Shown: positions 20,324 to 54,325 of the stretch, piece by piece | Position numbering within the stretch: the stretch's first letter is position 1 | Layout: every line of letters begins with the position of its first letter | Assembly (NCBI GenBank): GCA_937928735.1 | Contig: CALFVF010000003.1 | Coordinates: 16,373-80,372, forward strand | DNA: 64,000 bases | DNA from: an uncultured Verrucomicrobiales bacterium | GTDB lineage: Bacteria > Verrucomicrobiota > Verrucomicrobiia > Verrucomicrobiales > Akkermansiaceae | Reading direction: 5' to 3' | The notes under the pieces: model-generated | The model's input: the letters and a program-made list of their open reading frames with translations, nothing else | Databases searched by the model: none | What the model was told of the DNA's origin: nothing | Position numbers and translations under genes: made by a program

Positions 20324-21682
20324 TCACCCTTGAGGGGTTAAAGGTGCCGTTTTAGAGATAGGGTTGGCTTTTGGTTCAGCGTTTAAATGAGTTTTTGGGT
20401 CGATCTTGGTGCTGGCTTTTGTCTCATGGGGGGCTCTAGAGGGGAGGTTACCTGGGGGCTTGAGTTTGGTGTCTGCTTGGGCCTTTATTTCGGTCTGTGT
20501 TTCATTCTCTATTTGAGGTGCTCGCTCTATGATTTTCACTTTGGAGCCCTCAGCGACAAATCCTAGCTTTGAGGAGGCGATCTGGACATTGTGTAGCTCG
20601 GGAGCACGTGTGATGATGGCATCTGGTGTAGCCCAGAGTATATCAATGTCGCGGCGGTGGGCTATTTGATCCATAACTGTGATGATACTTGAGCTTCCGT
20701 GGATAATATCGCGAGGGATGACGAGAACATCTTTGAGAGTTTGACCCTGAATCTGGGCGTTTACTACTTGGTTAAATCTCAGAGGTGGTTGGTCGGATTT
20801 GAGACCAAAAGGGTCCTGGATCTCAGCAATGACAAAGAGCTCTCTTGAGGAATTATCGAGCTCTCCCTCTGTACGCACAATCTGAGCCTGCCATCGATAG
20901 GGTTGCTGTGAGAGCGGATCTTTTAGTTCCACAGGGATGGGGCGGTCTTGTTTATGAATTTGGCCGAGGTCAATGAAGTTGAGCTGGCGACTGGAGAGCG
21001 GGAGGCGAATGTGAGCTGTTTCTGTACTATAGATTTCTCCCAGAGTCGTATTTACAGAGATGGTTTGGCCTGGTCCGACCAGCAGGCTGCGGACTCTACC
21101 GTCATAGGGAGCACGTATGTGAGTGCGCTCTAGGTTACGGTGTGCTCTCGTGAGATCTGCTTGGGCGGCTTTGAGATTCGCCTCGGCCTCCTTGAGTTGT
21201 GGGATACGAAGGACTAAATCATTGGGCTCATGATCAAAGCCGATGTCCTCCCAATTACGGCGCGCTTGCTGGGCTCTCGCATTCTCCTGCGCGAGGCTAG
21301 CCTCTGCTCGTGCTAGGTCTGCCTCAGCGGAAATGATTTGTGCTAAGAAATCCTCTGTATCAAGGCTGGCAAGAATATCACCTTTTTTGAAAAAAGCACC
21401 ATTTTGGAAAGAATCGTGAATTTCAATGATTTTACCAGGGACAGAAGAGCTGATGGGGGTGGTGACACTAGTCTGGACAATACCCTGGGTGAGAATATGG
21501 ATCTGATAGTCTATGGGAGCTAGGGAGGTGACAGCTGTCTCGATGACTCGGCGTTTCCCTGAAGAGGGCGCCCTTCGGGAGGGGGCACGTTCCTTGAGCT
21601 CATAGACAGCAAAATGTTCCCATCCTAAGTAGCCGAGGCCAAGAATGATCAATGCCGGTAAGATTCGGAGGAGATATTGCAT
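20324..21682 (-). CDS. HlyD/RND-type membrane fusion protein
   Basis: Periplasmic adaptor of an efflux or secretion system. One N-terminal membrane helix (LLRILPALIILGLGYLGWEHF), a biotinyl-lipoyl-like half (SSVPGKIIEIHDSFQNGAFF, KKGDILASLDTEDF), a long coiled coil of about 80 residues (AEADLARAEASLAQENARAQ onward), then THIRAPYDGRVRSLLVGPGQ, the second lipoyl half, and a beta-barrel. The C-terminal 60 residues are Lys/Thr/Pro-rich and low-complexity. I chose the ATG at 21682; the frame is open to a TTG at 21913, which would add 77 residues with another hydrophobic segment. No RND or ABC transporter is adjacent, so the partner is elsewhere. Confidence 0.82.
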   Translation of the reverse strand: MQYLLRILPALIILGLGYLGWEHFAVYELKERAPSRRAPSSGKRRVIETAVTSLAPIDYQIHILTQGIVQTSVTTPISSSVPGKIIEIHDSFQNGAFFKKGDILASLDTEDFLAQIISAEADLARAEASLAQENARAQQARRNWEDIGFDHEPNDLVLRIPQLKEAEANLKAAQADLTRAHRNLERTHIRAPYDGRVRSLLVGPGQTISVNTTLGEIYSTETAHIRLPLSSRQLNFIDLGQIHKQDRPIPVELKDPLSQQPYRWQAQIVRTEGELDNSSRELFVIAEIQDPFGLKSDQPPLRFNQVVNAQIQGQTLKDVLVIPRDIIHGSSSIITVMDQIAHRRDIDILWATPDAIITRAPELHNVQIASSKLGFVAEGSKVKIIERAPQIENETQTEIKAQADTKLKPPGNLPSRAPHETKASTKIDPKTHLNAEPKANPISKTAPLTPQG

Positions 21683-22028
21683 GGGATGGGTGAAAGGCCG
21701 TGTGATGAGGTAGCGAAAGCACAGAGAGACTGACCAGATAGCTACGTCTAGGAATAACAGAATCTTACGAAATGCCACTGAAAGTTTTTTTAAAAACAGG
21801 CCTTCAAATGAGCATGTCTGCAATGAGGTACTTCGAGTATAGAGATTAGCAGAGATGCCCTCTAGAGCAAAAGGGTCGAAAATGAGTTTGGAGTCATCAC
21901 GGTGGCGAGACAAAATGAGCTGAAATTGCTAGAGGTGACGAGAAGAGACAAAACCATTGATATTTTAGAGAATAGCCAGTAGATCTTGCCCTTGTAGGCA
22001 TAGATAACCATGCACTACATTTGACATT

Positions 22029-24674
22029 ATGAATGAAGAACAGCGTCGTTTAGCCTCCCCACTTGGTTCGAGAAGATCATGGAAAGAATGGGGTCCCTAC
22101 CTCAGTGAACGCCAATGGGGAACGGTTCGAGAAGATTACACACGCAGTGGAGATGCCTGGAATGCGATTAACCACGACATGTCACGCTTCTATGCTTATC
22201 GCTGGGGAGAGGATGGCATCGGGGGCTTTAGTGATCATAATTCAAGGATTTGCTTCTCACTCGCTCTCTGGAATGGGAAAGACACAATACTGAAAGAACG
22301 CCTTTTTGGGCTGAGTAATCCAGAAGGAAACCACGGAGAAGACGTCAAAGAGCTCTACTACTATCTAGATGCCACACCGACACATTCCTATGGTAAAATG
22401 CTCTACAAGTACCCACAGAGTGAGTTTCCCTACTCTAAAATCGTCAATGAGAACCGTAAGCGGGGGAAATTAGACCCTGAGTATGAGATCGAAGACACCG
22501 GTGCCTTTGAAAAGAATCGCTACTTTGACGTGGTGATTGAACACGCCAAAGATTCTCCGCTGGACTGCCACATGCGAATCACCGTGACGAACCGTAGTGC
22601 GGAAGAAGCGCCGATCTGGCTCATTCCTCAAGCATGGTTTAGAAATACTTGGTCTTCAGGAACAATAGACATGGAGGACAAGCCAACCTTACAAAAGGTG
22701 GATGAGCAAACCACAGTTCTTGACCACAAAGACCTCGATTCCTACCTGCTGGACTGCCCAGATGCAGACGAACTTATTTATTGCGAGAATGAGACCAATC
22801 GCAAAATTCTCCAAATTGGTAAAAACAAATCCCAATACCCCAAGGACAGCTTTCACAGGTACCTCTGCGATGGTGACAAGACCGCAGTGAATCCTGAGCA
22901 CAAAGGCACCAAAGTAGGCGCTGTTCACAAACTCGTCATCCCTGCTGGAGAGAGTCGAACCATCCGCATGAGACTACACCCCGTGCAGCTCGCCCAAGAA
23001 GTGGACACGGATGAAGTCTTTGAGAAGCGCATCAAAGAAGCTGACCGCTTCTATAAAGATGTCCAACAAGGTGTACCCGAGGGTGAGCCCCAGAACGTAC
23101 AGCGCCAAGCCCTCGCGGGTCTACTCTGGTCAAAGCAATATTATTATTACAATGTCGCCGAGTGGCTAGATGGTGATTGTAAGAACCCAGCCCCGCCCGA
23201 GGAGCGCAGAAAAGGCCGCAATCACCACTGGCGCCACCTCATTAATGATGAAATTATTTCCATGCCTGATAAGTGGGAATACCCGTGGTATGCCGCGTGG
23301 GATCTAGCCTTCCACTGCATCCCGCTCGCTCTCGTCGATCCAGCTTTTGCGAAGCGCCAGCTCAGAATGATGCTCAAAGAATGGTACATGCACCCCAATG
23401 GTCAGATACCAGCCTATGAGTGGCAACTAGATGATGTGAATCCACCCGTACACGCCTGGGGAGTGCGCCGAGTCTACCAGATGGAGCAGAGGCGCAATAA
23501 AGGGCGCGGAGATCTAGAATTTCTCGAAGAATGCTTCCACAAATTGATGATTAACTTCACATGGTGGATTAACCGCAAGGATGAAAAAGGCAACAACATC
23601 TTCCAAGGAGGCTTCTTAGGCCTCGATAACATCGGAGTCTTTGACAGAAGCTCTGAGCTCCCTACTGGTGGGCACCTCAGTCAGGCAGACGGCACTGCCT
23701 GGATGGCCTTCTACAGCCTACAGATGATGCAGATCGCCCTCGAACTCGCCCTGCATAATCCTGTGTATGAGAAAATTGCGAACAAATTCTTTGAGCACTT
23801 CCTCAGTATCGCAGGAGCGATCACAAGTATCGGGGATGACGGCCAAGGACTCTGGGATGACGAAGAAGGCTTCTTCTATGACATGCTTAATACCCCAGAC
23901 GGCCGTGAAGTCCCCCTCAAGGTGCGCTCTATGGTTGGACTGATCCCACTCTATGCCGTGGAGGTCATCTCCCAGGAGACACTCGTGCGCTTACCTAGAT
24001 TCCACAAGCACGTGCTCTGGGTCTTAGAGAATAAGCCAGAACTCGCTAAACTCGTGCCGTCCGTTGAAGTACCAGGGGAAGGCCGCCGTCGCCTTCTCTC
24101 ACTAGTCGGGCCAAATCGCCTCAGAAGGATTCTAACAAGAGTACTCGATGAAAAAGAATTCCTCTCACCATATGGAATCCGTGGACTCTCCAAAGCCCAT
24201 GAGAAAGACCCCTACGTCTTTGATACGGATGGCATGCACCTCACAGTCAACTACATGCCAGCAGAGTCGAATTCTGACATGTTTGGTGGTAACTCAAACT
24301 GGCGTGGCCCAGTGTGGTTCCCAGTGAACTACTTACTCTTTGAGTCCTTACAAAAATTCCATCACTATCTGGGAGATGACTTCCAAGTCGAACACCCCAC
24401 GGGATCAGGCAATACCTCTAACCTAGCGGAAGTCTCCAAAGACCTAGCCACTCGCCTGACCAATATCTTTATGCCAGGAGAAAATGGAGACCGCCCAGTC
24501 AACGGCCACCAACCACTCTACAATACAGACGGCTTCCATGATAAAATCCTCTTTTATGAGTACTTCGATGGAGATAACGGCCGAGGTATCGGCGCCTCCC
24601 ACCAAACAGGTTGGACAGGCCTCGTCGCTAAACTCGTGCAATCGGTCTATGCGAGTGTTGATATGACGAAGTAG
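22029..24674 (+). CDS. GH63-like glucosidase
   Basis: Large cytoplasmic-looking glycoside hydrolase of 881 residues, with no signal peptide. It resembles the (alpha/alpha)6-barrel enzymes of the GH63/MGH1 group that remove glucose or mannose from short glucosides. Family-like segments are WNAINHDMSRFYAYRWGEDG near residue 40, WYAAWDLAFHCIPLALVDPA near 430 with the catalytic-acid region, QIPAYEWQLDDVNPPVHAWG, GHLSQADGTAWMAFYSLQMM near 550, and NWRGPVWFPVNYLLFESL near 760. A strong hairpin terminator follows. The substrate could be a compatible-solute glucoside or storage glucan; the sequence does not decide. Confidence 0.85.
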   Translation: MNEEQRRLASPLGSRRSWKEWGPYLSERQWGTVREDYTRSGDAWNAINHDMSRFYAYRWGEDGIGGFSDHNSRICFSLALWNGKDTILKERLFGLSNPEGNHGEDVKELYYYLDATPTHSYGKMLYKYPQSEFPYSKIVNENRKRGKLDPEYEIEDTGAFEKNRYFDVVIEHAKDSPLDCHMRITVTNRSAEEAPIWLIPQAWFRNTWSSGTIDMEDKPTLQKVDEQTTVLDHKDLDSYLLDCPDADELIYCENETNRKILQIGKNKSQYPKDSFHRYLCDGDKTAVNPEHKGTKVGAVHKLVIPAGESRTIRMRLHPVQLAQEVDTDEVFEKRIKEADRFYKDVQQGVPEGEPQNVQRQALAGLLWSKQYYYYNVAEWLDGDCKNPAPPEERRKGRNHHWRHLINDEIISMPDKWEYPWYAAWDLAFHCIPLALVDPAFAKRQLRMMLKEWYMHPNGQIPAYEWQLDDVNPPVHAWGVRRVYQMEQRRNKGRGDLEFLEECFHKLMINFTWWINRKDEKGNNIFQGGFLGLDNIGVFDRSSELPTGGHLSQADGTAWMAFYSLQMMQIALELALHNPVYEKIANKFFEHFLSIAGAITSIGDDGQGLWDDEEGFFYDMLNTPDGREVPLKVRSMVGLIPLYAVEVISQETLVRLPRFHKHVLWVLENKPELAKLVPSVEVPGEGRRRLLSLVGPNRLRRILTRVLDEKEFLSPYGIRGLSKAHEKDPYVFDTDGMHLTVNYMPAESNSDMFGGNSNWRGPVWFPVNYLLFESLQKFHHYLGDDFQVEHPTGSGNTSNLAEVSKDLATRLTNIFMPGENGDRPVNGHQPLYNTDGFHDKILFYEYFDGDNGRGIGASHQTGWTGLVAKLVQSVYASVDMTK

Positions 24675-24707
24675 GGTATTATAAGTAGTATCACCTCTCC
24701 TTATTTG

Positions 24708-24739
24708 AACTACCCCCGTTACTTGTAGCGGGGGTAGTT
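24708..24739 (+). terminator. Terminator of the GH63-like gene
   Basis: Perfect 11-bp GC-rich stem AACTACCCCCG / CGGGGGTAGTT with a 10-base loop, 33 bases past the stop codon, followed by ATTTG. Confidence 0.8.
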
Positions 24740-24771
24740 ATTTGTGGGCTAAACACAAAAAAGCTATTTTA

Positions 24772-24798
24772 TACCAACTTAAAAAAACTAACCGGTGT
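24772..24798. repeat. Single-end remnant of the TACCAA...TTGGTA element
   Basis: TACCAACTTAAAAAAACTAA then CCGGTGTTA matches the left end of the 156-bp elements seen at 35741 and 57313, with two or three changes, but there is no core or right end. It lies just after a terminator. Confidence 0.5.
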
Positions 24799-25178
24799 TA
24801 TAAAAGCATCATATTGAAGTGTTATCATCTTTCTATTGTAATGACTCTCAGAACTAACTCACTTTGAGCAATAAGGAATTATTGATATTCTAGGCTTGTG
24901 TCCTATGTCTGATCTAATCGACATTGTCTGCGTGAACTTAGCGATTAAGAGGCGAAATTGCAGTTTTCTTCACTGACCTCATTCAAAGAATAGATTCTAC
25001 AGAGGGCACTAAATCACAGAGGTTGATTGAGCGTGTCTGAAATGAGAGTCTCACGAGATATTCCTAGTTTCTGCTTCTAGAAGAAACGAACCTAATTTCT
25101 TGCAAGATTCTCAATGAGTTGTATGTATTAGTGCGATACGTTTATTCTATAATACAAAAAAATCACGATCTAATCATT
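24799..25178. other. Intergenic leader of the Cys/His repeat protein
   Basis: No gene. TATAAT at 25148-25153 is a good -10 element 26 bases before the ATG; the -35 region (GTATTA at 25125) is poor, so an activator may be needed. No clear ribosome binding site precedes the ATG. Confidence 0.45.
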
Positions 25179-25943
25179 ATGAAACTATTATCATTACTCG
25201 CTTCTAGCGCGTTTCTTACTTCTGTAGCCTTTGCTGGACCTAATGCTGATTGCCCTGATGGACATTGCCCGACTAAGGTAGCCCAGTCAGCTGAAGGCGT
25301 CATTCTTGCTAGCGCAGAAGCAGGAATCGAGTGTGAGAAAGGACATTGCCCGACTAAGTCAGCTCAGTCAGCTGAAGGCGTCATTCTTGCTGGCACAAAA
25401 GCAGGCATTGAGTGCGAAAAAGGCCATTGCCCAACTAAAGCAGGTAAGGACATGGGAGACGCTGCCGTGCTTGCTAGCACAAAAGCAGGAATCGAGTGTG
25501 AAAAGGGACATTGCCCAACTAAAGCTGGTAAGGACATGGGAGAAGCCGCCGTGCTTGCTAGCACAAAGGCAGGAATCGAGTGTGAGAAGGGACATTGCCC
25601 AACTAAAGCAGGTAAGGACATGGGAGAAGCAGCCGTGCTTGCTAGCACAAAAGCGGGAATCGAGTGTGAAAAGGGCCATTGCCCAACTAAAGCTGGTAAG
25701 GACATGGGAGACGCTGCCGTGCTTGCTAGCACAAAAGCAGGCATCGAGTGTGAAAAGGGACATTGCCCGACTAAAGCTGGTAAGGACATGGGAGAAGCTG
25801 CCGTGCTTGCTAGCACAAAAGCGGGAATCGAGTGTGAAAAGGGACATTGCCCGACTAAAGCAGGTAAGGACATGGGAGAAGCTGCAGTACTAGCTAGTAC
25901 GGAAAGCCAAGCTAGCCAGCAGGCTGCTTCCGCTGCGAAGTAA
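25179..25943 (+). CDS. Secreted Cys/His tandem-repeat protein, unknown family
   Basis: Not a family I recognise. A signal peptide (MKLLSLLASSAFLTSVAFAG, residues 1-20) precedes eight repeats that fill residues 24-241. Units 1-2 have 27 residues and units 3-8 have 28. Each holds C-x4-C with an internal GH: CEKGHCPTK, then AGKDMG(E/D)AAVLAST. The tail is Gln/Ala/Ser-rich and there is no other domain. Two Cys and one His per repeat, 16 Cys in all, could bind a metal or form disulfides outside the cytoplasm; this is inference. I chose the ATG at 25179 because it opens the signal peptide; the upstream in-frame start at 25119 does not. Repeats 3-8 are nearly identical in DNA, so copy number may vary between strains. 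Confidence 0.88.
   Translation: MKLLSLLASSAFLTSVAFAGPNADCPDGHCPTKVAQSAEGVILASAEAGIECEKGHCPTKSAQSAEGVILAGTKAGIECEKGHCPTKAGKDMGDAAVLASTKAGIECEKGHCPTKAGKDMGEAAVLASTKAGIECEKGHCPTKAGKDMGEAAVLASTKAGIECEKGHCPTKAGKDMGDAAVLASTKAGIECEKGHCPTKAGKDMGEAAVLASTKAGIECEKGHCPTKAGKDMGEAAVLASTESQASQQAASAAK
25248..25904 (+). repeat. Coding tandem repeats, 81/84-bp units, 8 copies
   Basis: Two 81-bp units followed by six 84-bp units; the last six differ by only a few, mostly silent, changes. Because 84 is a multiple of three, other frames stay open across the array on both strands. Recent unit duplication or recombination is the natural explanation. Confidence 0.95.
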
Positions 25944-25974
25944 TTTCTAGCGCTTACTCGTACAAAAATTTAGC

Positions 25975-26007
25975 AACCACTGGAGCTCAGCTCCCGTGGT
26001 TTTTTTG
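25975..26007 (+). terminator. Terminator of the repeat-protein gene
   Basis: AACCACTGGAG pairs with CTCCCGTGGTT (one mismatch) around CTCAG, followed by a run of T. Typical rho-independent terminator 32 bases past the stop codon. Confidence 0.88.
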
Positions 26008-26073
26008 TACCTTATAGGCGGATGAATGTCATTCGAGAGTTTGATCTCTAGTGTTCTTTTGCTAAGAAGGGGT

Positions 26074-26373
26074 ATGGTACATCATATTGTTTTACTGCAG
26101 TTTAAAGAGGGGGTGGAGAATGACCAAATCATGAGCACGATGGAGAAGCTAACAAACTTAGTGGAAGTGATACCGGGACTTCTAGAGATGAAGCACGGGA
26201 AAAACCATTCTCCAGAGAATAGGCATCAAGGCTATGCGTATGGATTTACGATGCTCTTTGAGAATGAGCATGCGCGTGATCAGTATCTCCCACACCCTGC
26301 GCACCAGGCCTGTGTCGAGGTGCTTGTGCCCCTTATCGAGAATGTGCTCGTTTTTGACTTTACGGCTGCCTAG
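26074..26373 (+). CDS. Stress-responsive Dabb-domain protein
   Basis: Small dimeric alpha/beta-barrel protein of 99 residues. The start MVHHIVLLQFKEGVEND is characteristic of the family, and AYGFTMLFENEHARDQYLPH is the second conserved strand-helix with the shared His. AAGAAGGGG stands right before the ATG at 26074, so I prefer it to the ATG at 26026, whose 16 extra residues are unlike the family. The biochemical role is mostly unknown; some relatives cyclise polyketides. No operon partner. Confidence 0.85.
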   Translation: MVHHIVLLQFKEGVENDQIMSTMEKLTNLVEVIPGLLEMKHGKNHSPENRHQGYAYGFTMLFENEHARDQYLPHPAHQACVEVLVPLIENVLVFDFTAA

Positions 26374-29717: not shown

Positions 29718-30323
29718 ATGTCTAAGAATAACAAAGGCAAGAAAGGGAAGAAGAAAAAGAAAGACCCGATAGAGGAAAAAGCGCACATCGCACGCATGGC
29801 AAAAGCCATGTGGGAGCGTGGGCAGAGTGAACTCTGTGAGGTCAGAGGCTCCGTGATCCATGGGAGGGGAGTCTATGCGACTCAAGATATCGAGGAAGAG
29901 ACTCAGGTTATTGAGTACCTGGGAGAGTTTATTGATAAGGAAGAGAGCGAGAGGCGTGCGAACGTGCAGAGTGAACACGCAGAGGCGACAGGAGATGCCG
30001 CCGTTTATATCTTCACTCTCAATGATGACTGGGATATCGATGGTGATGTCCCTTGGAATCCGGCGCGCCTCATTAACCACTCCTGTGATCCGAACTGTGA
30101 AGCATGGATCGATGAAGATCAGATTTTCATCTACGCGATCAAAGATATATGGGAAGGGGAGGAACTCACCTTTGACTACGGTTTTGATATCGAATGCTAT
30201 GAGGATCATCCTTGTCTCTGTGGCTCAGAGAACTGTGTGGGCTACATTGTTAGCCGCGAGCAGTGGGATCAACTTGAGGAGCTAAAAGTACAGAAAGCCC
30301 AAGAAGAAGCTTCCACAGCGTAG
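29718..30323 (+). CDS. SET-domain protein lysine methyltransferase-like
   Basis: A very basic N-terminus (MSKNNKGKKGKKKKK, up to residue 16) leads into a SET domain at about residues 40-170. Motifs: GRGVYATQDIEEET, VIEYLGEFID, RLINHSCDPNCEAW (the NHS motif that binds S-adenosylmethionine), GEELTFDYG with the catalytic Tyr, and a post-SET CLCGSENCVG that could bind zinc with the upstream Cys. This arrangement is that of eukaryotic-type histone methyltransferases; bacterial members occur in Chlamydiae and Verrucomicrobiota. AGAGGAAG six bases before the ATG fixes the start. Targets could be histone-like or ribosomal proteins. Confidence 0.9.
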   Translation: MSKNNKGKKGKKKKKDPIEEKAHIARMAKAMWERGQSELCEVRGSVIHGRGVYATQDIEEETQVIEYLGEFIDKEESERRANVQSEHAEATGDAAVYIFTLNDDWDIDGDVPWNPARLINHSCDPNCEAWIDEDQIFIYAIKDIWEGEELTFDYGFDIECYEDHPCLCGSENCVGYIVSREQWDQLEELKVQKAQEEASTA

Positions 30324-54200: not shown

Positions 54201-54325
54201 GAGAACGTCTCTGCCGCCACTGGGGTGCTGAGATCGAATTAGTATCAGAATCATTGGCAGTAGAATCATTGGCAGTAGAATCATTAGTAGTAGAATCATT
54301 AGTAGTACTAGGAGATTCTAGTTGA
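54197..54325 (+). CDS. Candidate 42-residue ORF with ESLAV pentapeptide repeats
   Basis: Opens with ATG overlapping the aldH stop (ATGA). The sequence begins MRERLCRHWGAEIELVS, then ESLAV, ESLAV, ESLVV, ESLVV and LGDSS. The 15-bp repeats stay in frame, and the ATGA overlap is typical of coupled translation. But the segment is short, has no homologue I recognise and may be chance. Low confidence. Confidence 0.35.
   Translation: MRERLCRHWGAEIELVSESLAVESLAVESLVVESLVVLGDSS
54247..54306 (+). repeat. Four 15-bp tandem repeats
   Basis: AGAATCATTGGCAGT twice, then AGAATCATTAGTAGT twice, without gaps. Lies between aldH and the GbsR-type regulator; encodes the pentapeptides of the small ORF. Copy number may vary by slippage. 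Confidence 0.9.

Follow-up and report, generated by a model that had tools for sequence, protein, structure and literature searches.

Precursors that combine a signal peptide with a CxxxxC motif, as well as precursors that carry repeated EGKCG, are putative MNIO substrates, and exported precursors with Cys motifs are linked to copper or to other metal or redox functions (PMC12452194). The 64,000-nt stretch of DNA analysed here (the window) contains a gene for a predicted exported protein in which a C-x4-C pair recurs in eight tandem units. The initial annotation had described this open reading frame, its signal peptide (recognized by eye), the eight units of 27–28 residues with C-x4-C and Gly-His, and the totals of 16 Cys and 8 His, all of which are borne out (Table 1).

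The motif C-x-x-G-H-C-P-T-K is present in all eight units, starting at residues 25, 52, 79, 107, 135, 163, 191 and 219, so that the C-to-C spacing between successive units is 27, 27 and then five times 28 residues, and a Cys-free tail follows the last motif. Unit 1 carries the variant CPDGHC and units 2–8 carry CEKGHC. Every one of the 16 Cys residues falls in a C-x-x-G-H-C frame with one His per frame, and the C, G, H and C positions are invariant across the eight units, which gives two thiols and one imidazole per unit. Shuffled versions of the mature sequence contained the motif 0.0035 times on average and once at most (2000 shuffles), compared with the eight copies observed. At the DNA level, Tandem Repeats Finder detects an 84-base period repeated 7.1 times, with 89% matches.

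Residues 1–19 resemble a Sec signal peptide that ends in AFA, as judged by eye and by a crude rule. The mature chain of 235 aa (calculated mass 23.2 kDa, pI of roughly 6.1) lacks Phe, Tyr, Trp and Arg, and the protein sequence contains neither CXXCH nor EGKCG. Lack of aromatic residues is a trait of metallothioneins. Cys makes up 16 of 235 residues of the mature protein (6.8%) versus 34 of 4860 (0.70%) in 19 other exported-like open reading frames of the window, a set picked by a crude rule that also admitted some cytoplasmic enzymes; the 41 remaining frames of the window contain 200 Cys in 13138 residues (1.5%). Structure prediction with AlphaFold2 was uninformative, with pLDDT values of 42.6 for the single sequence and 34.0 for a pseudo-alignment built from the units of the array.

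Table 1 Features of the repeat gene and its flanks, in window coordinates
Feature	Position	Strand	Basis or remark
Leader, 504 nt from the stop of the GH63-like gene	24675..25178	+	
Terminator-like hairpin of the GH63-like gene, inside the leader	24708-24739	+	z -4.59
TATAAT, possible -10 box without recognizable -35	25148..25153	+	may be due to chance
Whole coding sequence, 254 aa, ATG to TAA	25179..25943	+	ORF list, sequence reading, third-position variation among units
Predicted Sec signal peptide MKLLSLLASSAFLTSVAFA, probable cleavage after AFA	25179..25235	+	by eye and crude rule
Unit 1, 27 aa, CPDGHCPTK	25251..25331	+	
Unit 2, 27 aa, CEKGHCPTK	25332..25412	+	
Unit 3, 28 aa, D type	25413..25496	+	
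Unit 4, 28 aa	25497..25580	+	
Unit 5, 28 aa	25581..25664	+	
Unit 6, 28 aa, D type	25665..25748	+	
Unit 7, 28 aa	25749..25832	+	
Unit 8, 24 aa, last cysteine pair	25833..25904	+	
C-terminal tail SQASQQAASAAK, Cys-free	25905..25940	+	
Intrinsic terminator-like hairpin with T run	25960..26010	+	
Alternative frame over the array: second + frame, 195 aa		+	
Alternative frames over the array: two antisense frames, 169 and 159 aa		-	

The near-identity of the last six units that had been noted earlier is confirmed, as units 3–8 differ pairwise by 3–12 of 84 bases (15 pairs). Over 24 codons these units show 15 variable columns, 14 of which lie at codon position 3, and in a shifted register of 28 codons 15 of 16 variable columns do so. 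The ratio pN/pS among them is 0.046 (Nei-Gojobori-type, 15 pairs), and the amino acid is identical in all six units at the codons of 12 of the 15 variable columns (expected fraction 0.24, binomial P 9e-6), although neither the columns nor the pairs behind these two figures are fully independent. Silent sites have thus drifted while amino acids stayed constant, which indicates that the protein sequence of each unit is kept. The repeat gene behaves as a selected gene, with selection visible on the unit sequence; the initial annotation had suggested that copy number may be selected or may vary by recombination. Growth by duplication of three-unit blocks is unsupported, as mean differences at offsets of 1, 2 and 3 units are 6.2, 6.75 and 6.0.

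Since the 84-base period is divisible by three, any frame that is stop-free in one unit remains open through the array, and this accounts for the alternative frames in Table 1. Across five full units, 10 of 11 variable columns are silent in frame +1, none of 11 in four other frames and 9 of 11 in one antisense frame, presumably because the third positions of that frame face those of frame +1. The sole terminator-like site found near the array serves the + strand.

This site, a 51-nt hairpin after the stop codon, has a predicted stability of -22 kcal/mol (z -5.51) that none of 200 shuffled sequences reached, in agreement with the strong terminator described earlier. The long leader also stands, and the upstream GH63-like gene has a terminator-like hairpin of its own, which makes it probable that the repeat gene is a stand-alone gene, as had been proposed. 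The promoter-like -10 box fared less well. An exact TATAAT does sit 25 bases upstream of the ATG, but a consensus scan of the + strand from 24660 to 26100 found no sigma-70-type site and TATAAT occurs 13 times per strand in the window, leaving the promoter unproven. A Shine-Dalgarno-like string is absent upstream of the gene; such strings precede 5 of 26 hand-picked open reading frames of the window, whose start codons are unverified. The only Rfam match over gathering score between 24600 and 26700 is a tRNA-Phe, with nothing in the leader.

Three inverted repeats, all imperfect and 16, 10 and 9 nt long, lie in the leader. A short string around TTTTATACCAACTTAAAAAAACT (24763-24806) recurs at many places in the gene's own genome: 35 of the 42 genome matches to the leader (E <= 10, many of them weak) fall within query positions 94-137, and the same positions have four further weak matches inside the window. 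These copies resemble a small family of dispersed repeats.

The upstream neighbour encodes a GH63/MGH1-like glycoside hydrolase, and a Dabb-domain protein, a tRNA-Phe (-), an M28 peptidase (-) and ParB (-) follow downstream. A Pfam scan of 23 neighbours returned ordinary genes or no family: no metal-resistance gene was recognized among them save a generic HlyD-type adaptor (20324-21913, -), none matched MNIO, DUF2063 or DoxX, and no reductase or heme gene was recognized. Of 12 genomes of the genus, 11 carry the GH63-like gene; the repeat gene is found in one, its own. Genomes G005, G007 and G010 have GH63-like and Dabb genes on one contig, and the closest pairs are separated by about 71, 93 and 42 kb. 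In G003, the GH63-like gene is followed by a gene read as a peptidase.

Several other features were observed. The last part of the GH63-like gene and the hairpin behind it recur as a decayed, partial copy (L055 2131-2446, G000:C8:102630-102945; 81% over 316 bases), flanked by one frame read as ribosylglycohydrolase-like and another whose product seems to have a PEP-CTERM-like tail. Elsewhere in the window, a 15-base tandem repeat of 4.7 copies separates two open reading frames (54238-54307), and a SET-domain protein is encoded at 29718-30323 (+; PF00856, E 2.4e-25).

The initial annotation had recognized no family in the protein, and model-based searches concur: no Pfam or NCBIfam model scored over its cut-off, and the PDB sequences gave no match. 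The matches below curated cut-offs, all rejected, were to DUF4512 (E 0.011), DUF4789 (E 0.25), TILa (E 8.6) and an adenylate kinase model (E 5e-4, but 19.8 of 195 bits). Among 5.8 billion proteins, the full protein had no match at E <= 1 (7996 candidates scored), its first 106 residues had none at E <= 10 (37 candidates scored) and the unit profile had none at E <= 10 (7982 candidates scored); this search required shared five-residue words, left the window's own protein unlisted as well and may have scored repetitive composition low, so its silence on relatives is weaker than it looks. The repeat gene was found only in its own genome both among 58 related genomes and, with a five-row unit profile, among 386 genomes of the order. 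Plasmid and phage sequences, searched in translation, gave nothing similar, and the string CEKGHC was not found in a literature search.

The DNA pattern for CxxGHCP occurs eight times in the gene's own genome, always within the repeat gene. An 87-residue query (E <= 10) matched 69 places in 45 of 116 other genomes of the family, with a best E value of 0.0037; these matches are at noise level. CxxGHC is present in none of the 16 places that were read. Outside the repeat gene, a motif scan of 65 loci, among them 19 of the 69 places, turned up just two cases: CTKGHC in a frame of 54 aa (L035/L061, which are the same place) and CPLNHC in the viral locus L002. This single viral locus (21 residues, 62% identity) was rejected because the frame is not part of an open reading frame of at least 40 aa.

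Peptide patterns matched seven stretches in GTDB contigs, none of which was confirmed as a relative. Two motifs 28 codons apart, a scan that excludes units 27 codons apart, were present in 46 stretches of these contigs and in no viral contig. No relative was recognized in the 26 of the 46 that were looked at, one of which (L105) is an intergenic repeat, and the 25 with at least two motifs per open frame, judged by reading the printed sequence rather than by a homology score, are other multi-Cys proteins or seemingly non-coding or low-complexity frames. By these sequence comparisons, the repeat gene is so far an orphan, with no relative in the collections searched. Lineage-specific repeat proteins are common.

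In the gene's own genome, PF01323 (DsbA) and PF07884 (VKOR) have no match (8 and 3 of 14 controls, respectively, do), and PF02600 (DsbB) matches none of 12 genomes of the genus, its own included (6 of 14 controls); the genome is 93.9% complete, so that about 6% may be missing, and the search covered these three families, leaving aside other thioredoxin-fold oxidases such as PF13462. With none of the three found, exported thiols may stay reduced.

The MNIO family (PF05114) likewise has no match in the gene's own genome, two matches among the 12 genomes of the genus, one of them partial, and two among the 14 controls. The loci of 3.6-3.8 kb around the two genus MNIOs (L018 and L019) contain no CxxGHC frame. 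In L019 the partial match follows a 108-aa frame, read as EF-hand-like, that ends in NCPGCGLG, and in L018 the match lies between a 258-aa Cys-containing frame and a 209-aa possible partner.

We tentatively favour a reading in which the repeat protein, unmodified and extracytoplasmic, traps soft metals at multiple sites through its thiols and imidazoles. The protein with its eight tandem CxxGHC units would be exported through Sec, the exported thiols would stay reduced, and in each unit the two Cys thiols and the His imidazole, held in a short Gly-containing loop, could bind copper(I), zinc or a similar thiol-loving metal. One chain would bind several ions, more units would give more capacity, and the cell may benefit from the trapping. 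Three considerations lead us to prefer this reading, namely the invariant motif, the usual oxidases not being found, and analogues that are linked to metals but depend on MNIO, which has no match here. A point against it is that, the generic HlyD-type adaptor aside, the 23 scanned neighbours include no recognized metal-resistance gene.

The initial annotation had offered metal capture, a disulfide-rich fibre and redox buffering, of which we infer that metal capture fits best; the fibre is less likely because DsbA, VKOR and DsbB were not found. Nevertheless, a disulfide-clamped structural repeat is the main rival of the metal trap, and we regard it as somewhat unlikely. In this reading each CxxGHC would close on itself as a short loop, and stacking of the units would produce a rod or a fibre of the envelope, possibly with cross-links from one chain to another. 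The C-x4-C pairs at fixed spacing in each unit, the near-constant unit length and the even number of Cys residues suit disulfides too, as does the predicted export of the protein. However, a disulfide loop needs no conserved Gly-His, and AlphaFold2 gave no confident fold. Conservation of the Gly-His context beyond the need of a bulk thiol similarly weakens the case for a protein whose thiols buffer redox state or absorb oxidants outside the cytoplasm. This role would suit 16 Cys per chain where DsbA, DsbB and VKOR are undetected, but no reductase was recognized among the 23 neighbours, and we consider it improbable. CP motifs serve as heme ligands, and GHCPTK provides eight Cys-Pro dipeptides with a neighbouring His; heme binding by these residues nevertheless seems very improbable given that the CXXCH attachment motif is absent and that the scanned neighbours include no recognized heme gene.

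It is also improbable that the protein is an MNIO-type RiPP precursor, like those of bufferins and oxazolins, whose Cys residues are modified by an enzyme before export to bind copper. Its Sec-like signal, CxxxxC motifs and tandem units do fit the MNIO precursor families as far as these are described, stand-alone precursor genes are on record (PMC12452194), and MNIO is matched in two of the 12 genus genomes, in one of these only partially. Against this, PF05114 is unmatched in the gene's own genome, the scanned neighbours lack MNIO, DUF2063 and DoxX, and the CxxGHC frame is absent from the loci of both genus MNIOs. Finally, a young lineage-specific repeat gene without a settled role would agree with the lack of relatives in the searches made and with units 3-8 that are still nearly identical DNA. 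We hold this to be quite improbable because, although recent expansion or gene conversion could reduce divergence, neither alone would favour third positions as the pN/pS value of 0.046 reflects.

In a genome that shows none of the usual oxidases, the predicted export of 16 Cys is unusual and can be put to the test. Exported-like proteins of the window, as picked by the crude rule, are poor in Cys and the classical disulfide enzymes were not found, yet one gene is predicted to send out 16 Cys residues within a repeat under selection. Should the protein bind metal unmodified, the MNIO chemistry on which bufferins and oxazolins depend would prove dispensable for an exported metal buffer, and repeat number could set its capacity; should it instead be a disulfide rod, the question of its oxidant arises. 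A bolder proposal, which we put forward as doubtful, is that an exported polythiol, genetically encoded and made without a modifying enzyme, would constitute a new answer to extracytoplasmic metal buffering: a metallothionein-like array that can expand and that stays reduced since the lineage lacks Dsb/VKOR machinery.

Metallothioneins of the bacterial SmtA type are small, cytosolic proteins without a signal peptide. The repeat protein is Cys-rich as they are, and SmtA also has few or no aromatic residues; it differs in its predicted signal peptide, and no metallothionein model of Pfam or NCBIfam reached its cut-off. HMA metal-binding domains carry GMTCxxC, and some members contain a Gly-His-Cys string. 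The repeat protein shares this string with those members but has CxxxxC rather than CxxC and no Pfam match. The CXXCH motif of c-type cytochromes is likewise not among its sequence features.

Closer likenesses lie with exported proteins. The periplasmic copper storage proteins Csp1/NGO1701 are extracytoplasmic, have many metal sites per chain and buffer copper, much as is proposed for the repeat protein, although Csp is a predicted four-helix bundle rather than a tandem repeat (PMC12510493), and Pfam lists no Csp family match to the repeat protein at E up to 10. With the MNIO-associated CxxxxC and Buf_EGKCG/oxazolin precursors, as described in PMC12452194, it shares fixed short Cys motifs and, by prediction, a signal peptide, and the variable number of tandem units in EGKCG-type precursors can be likened to its eight units; stand-alone genes also occur among the MNIO-associated precursors, as here. 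The same source gives EGKCG repeats of 17 residues, whereas the unit here has 27-28 residues with CxxGHC in place of EGKCG. The conserved CxxxxC motif of MNIO precursors is present in eight copies, a likeness judged from the description (PMC12452194) rather than from a published profile, but the gene's own genome has no detectable MNIO, and the protein is therefore not counted as a member. The earlier statement that the gene belongs to no known system accordingly holds as regards the missing MNIO and is tempered by the resemblance to putative MNIO precursors (PMC12452194). Although the repeat protein is a member of no family tested, its look, as far as sequence reveals it, fits the exported Cys-motif metal binders.
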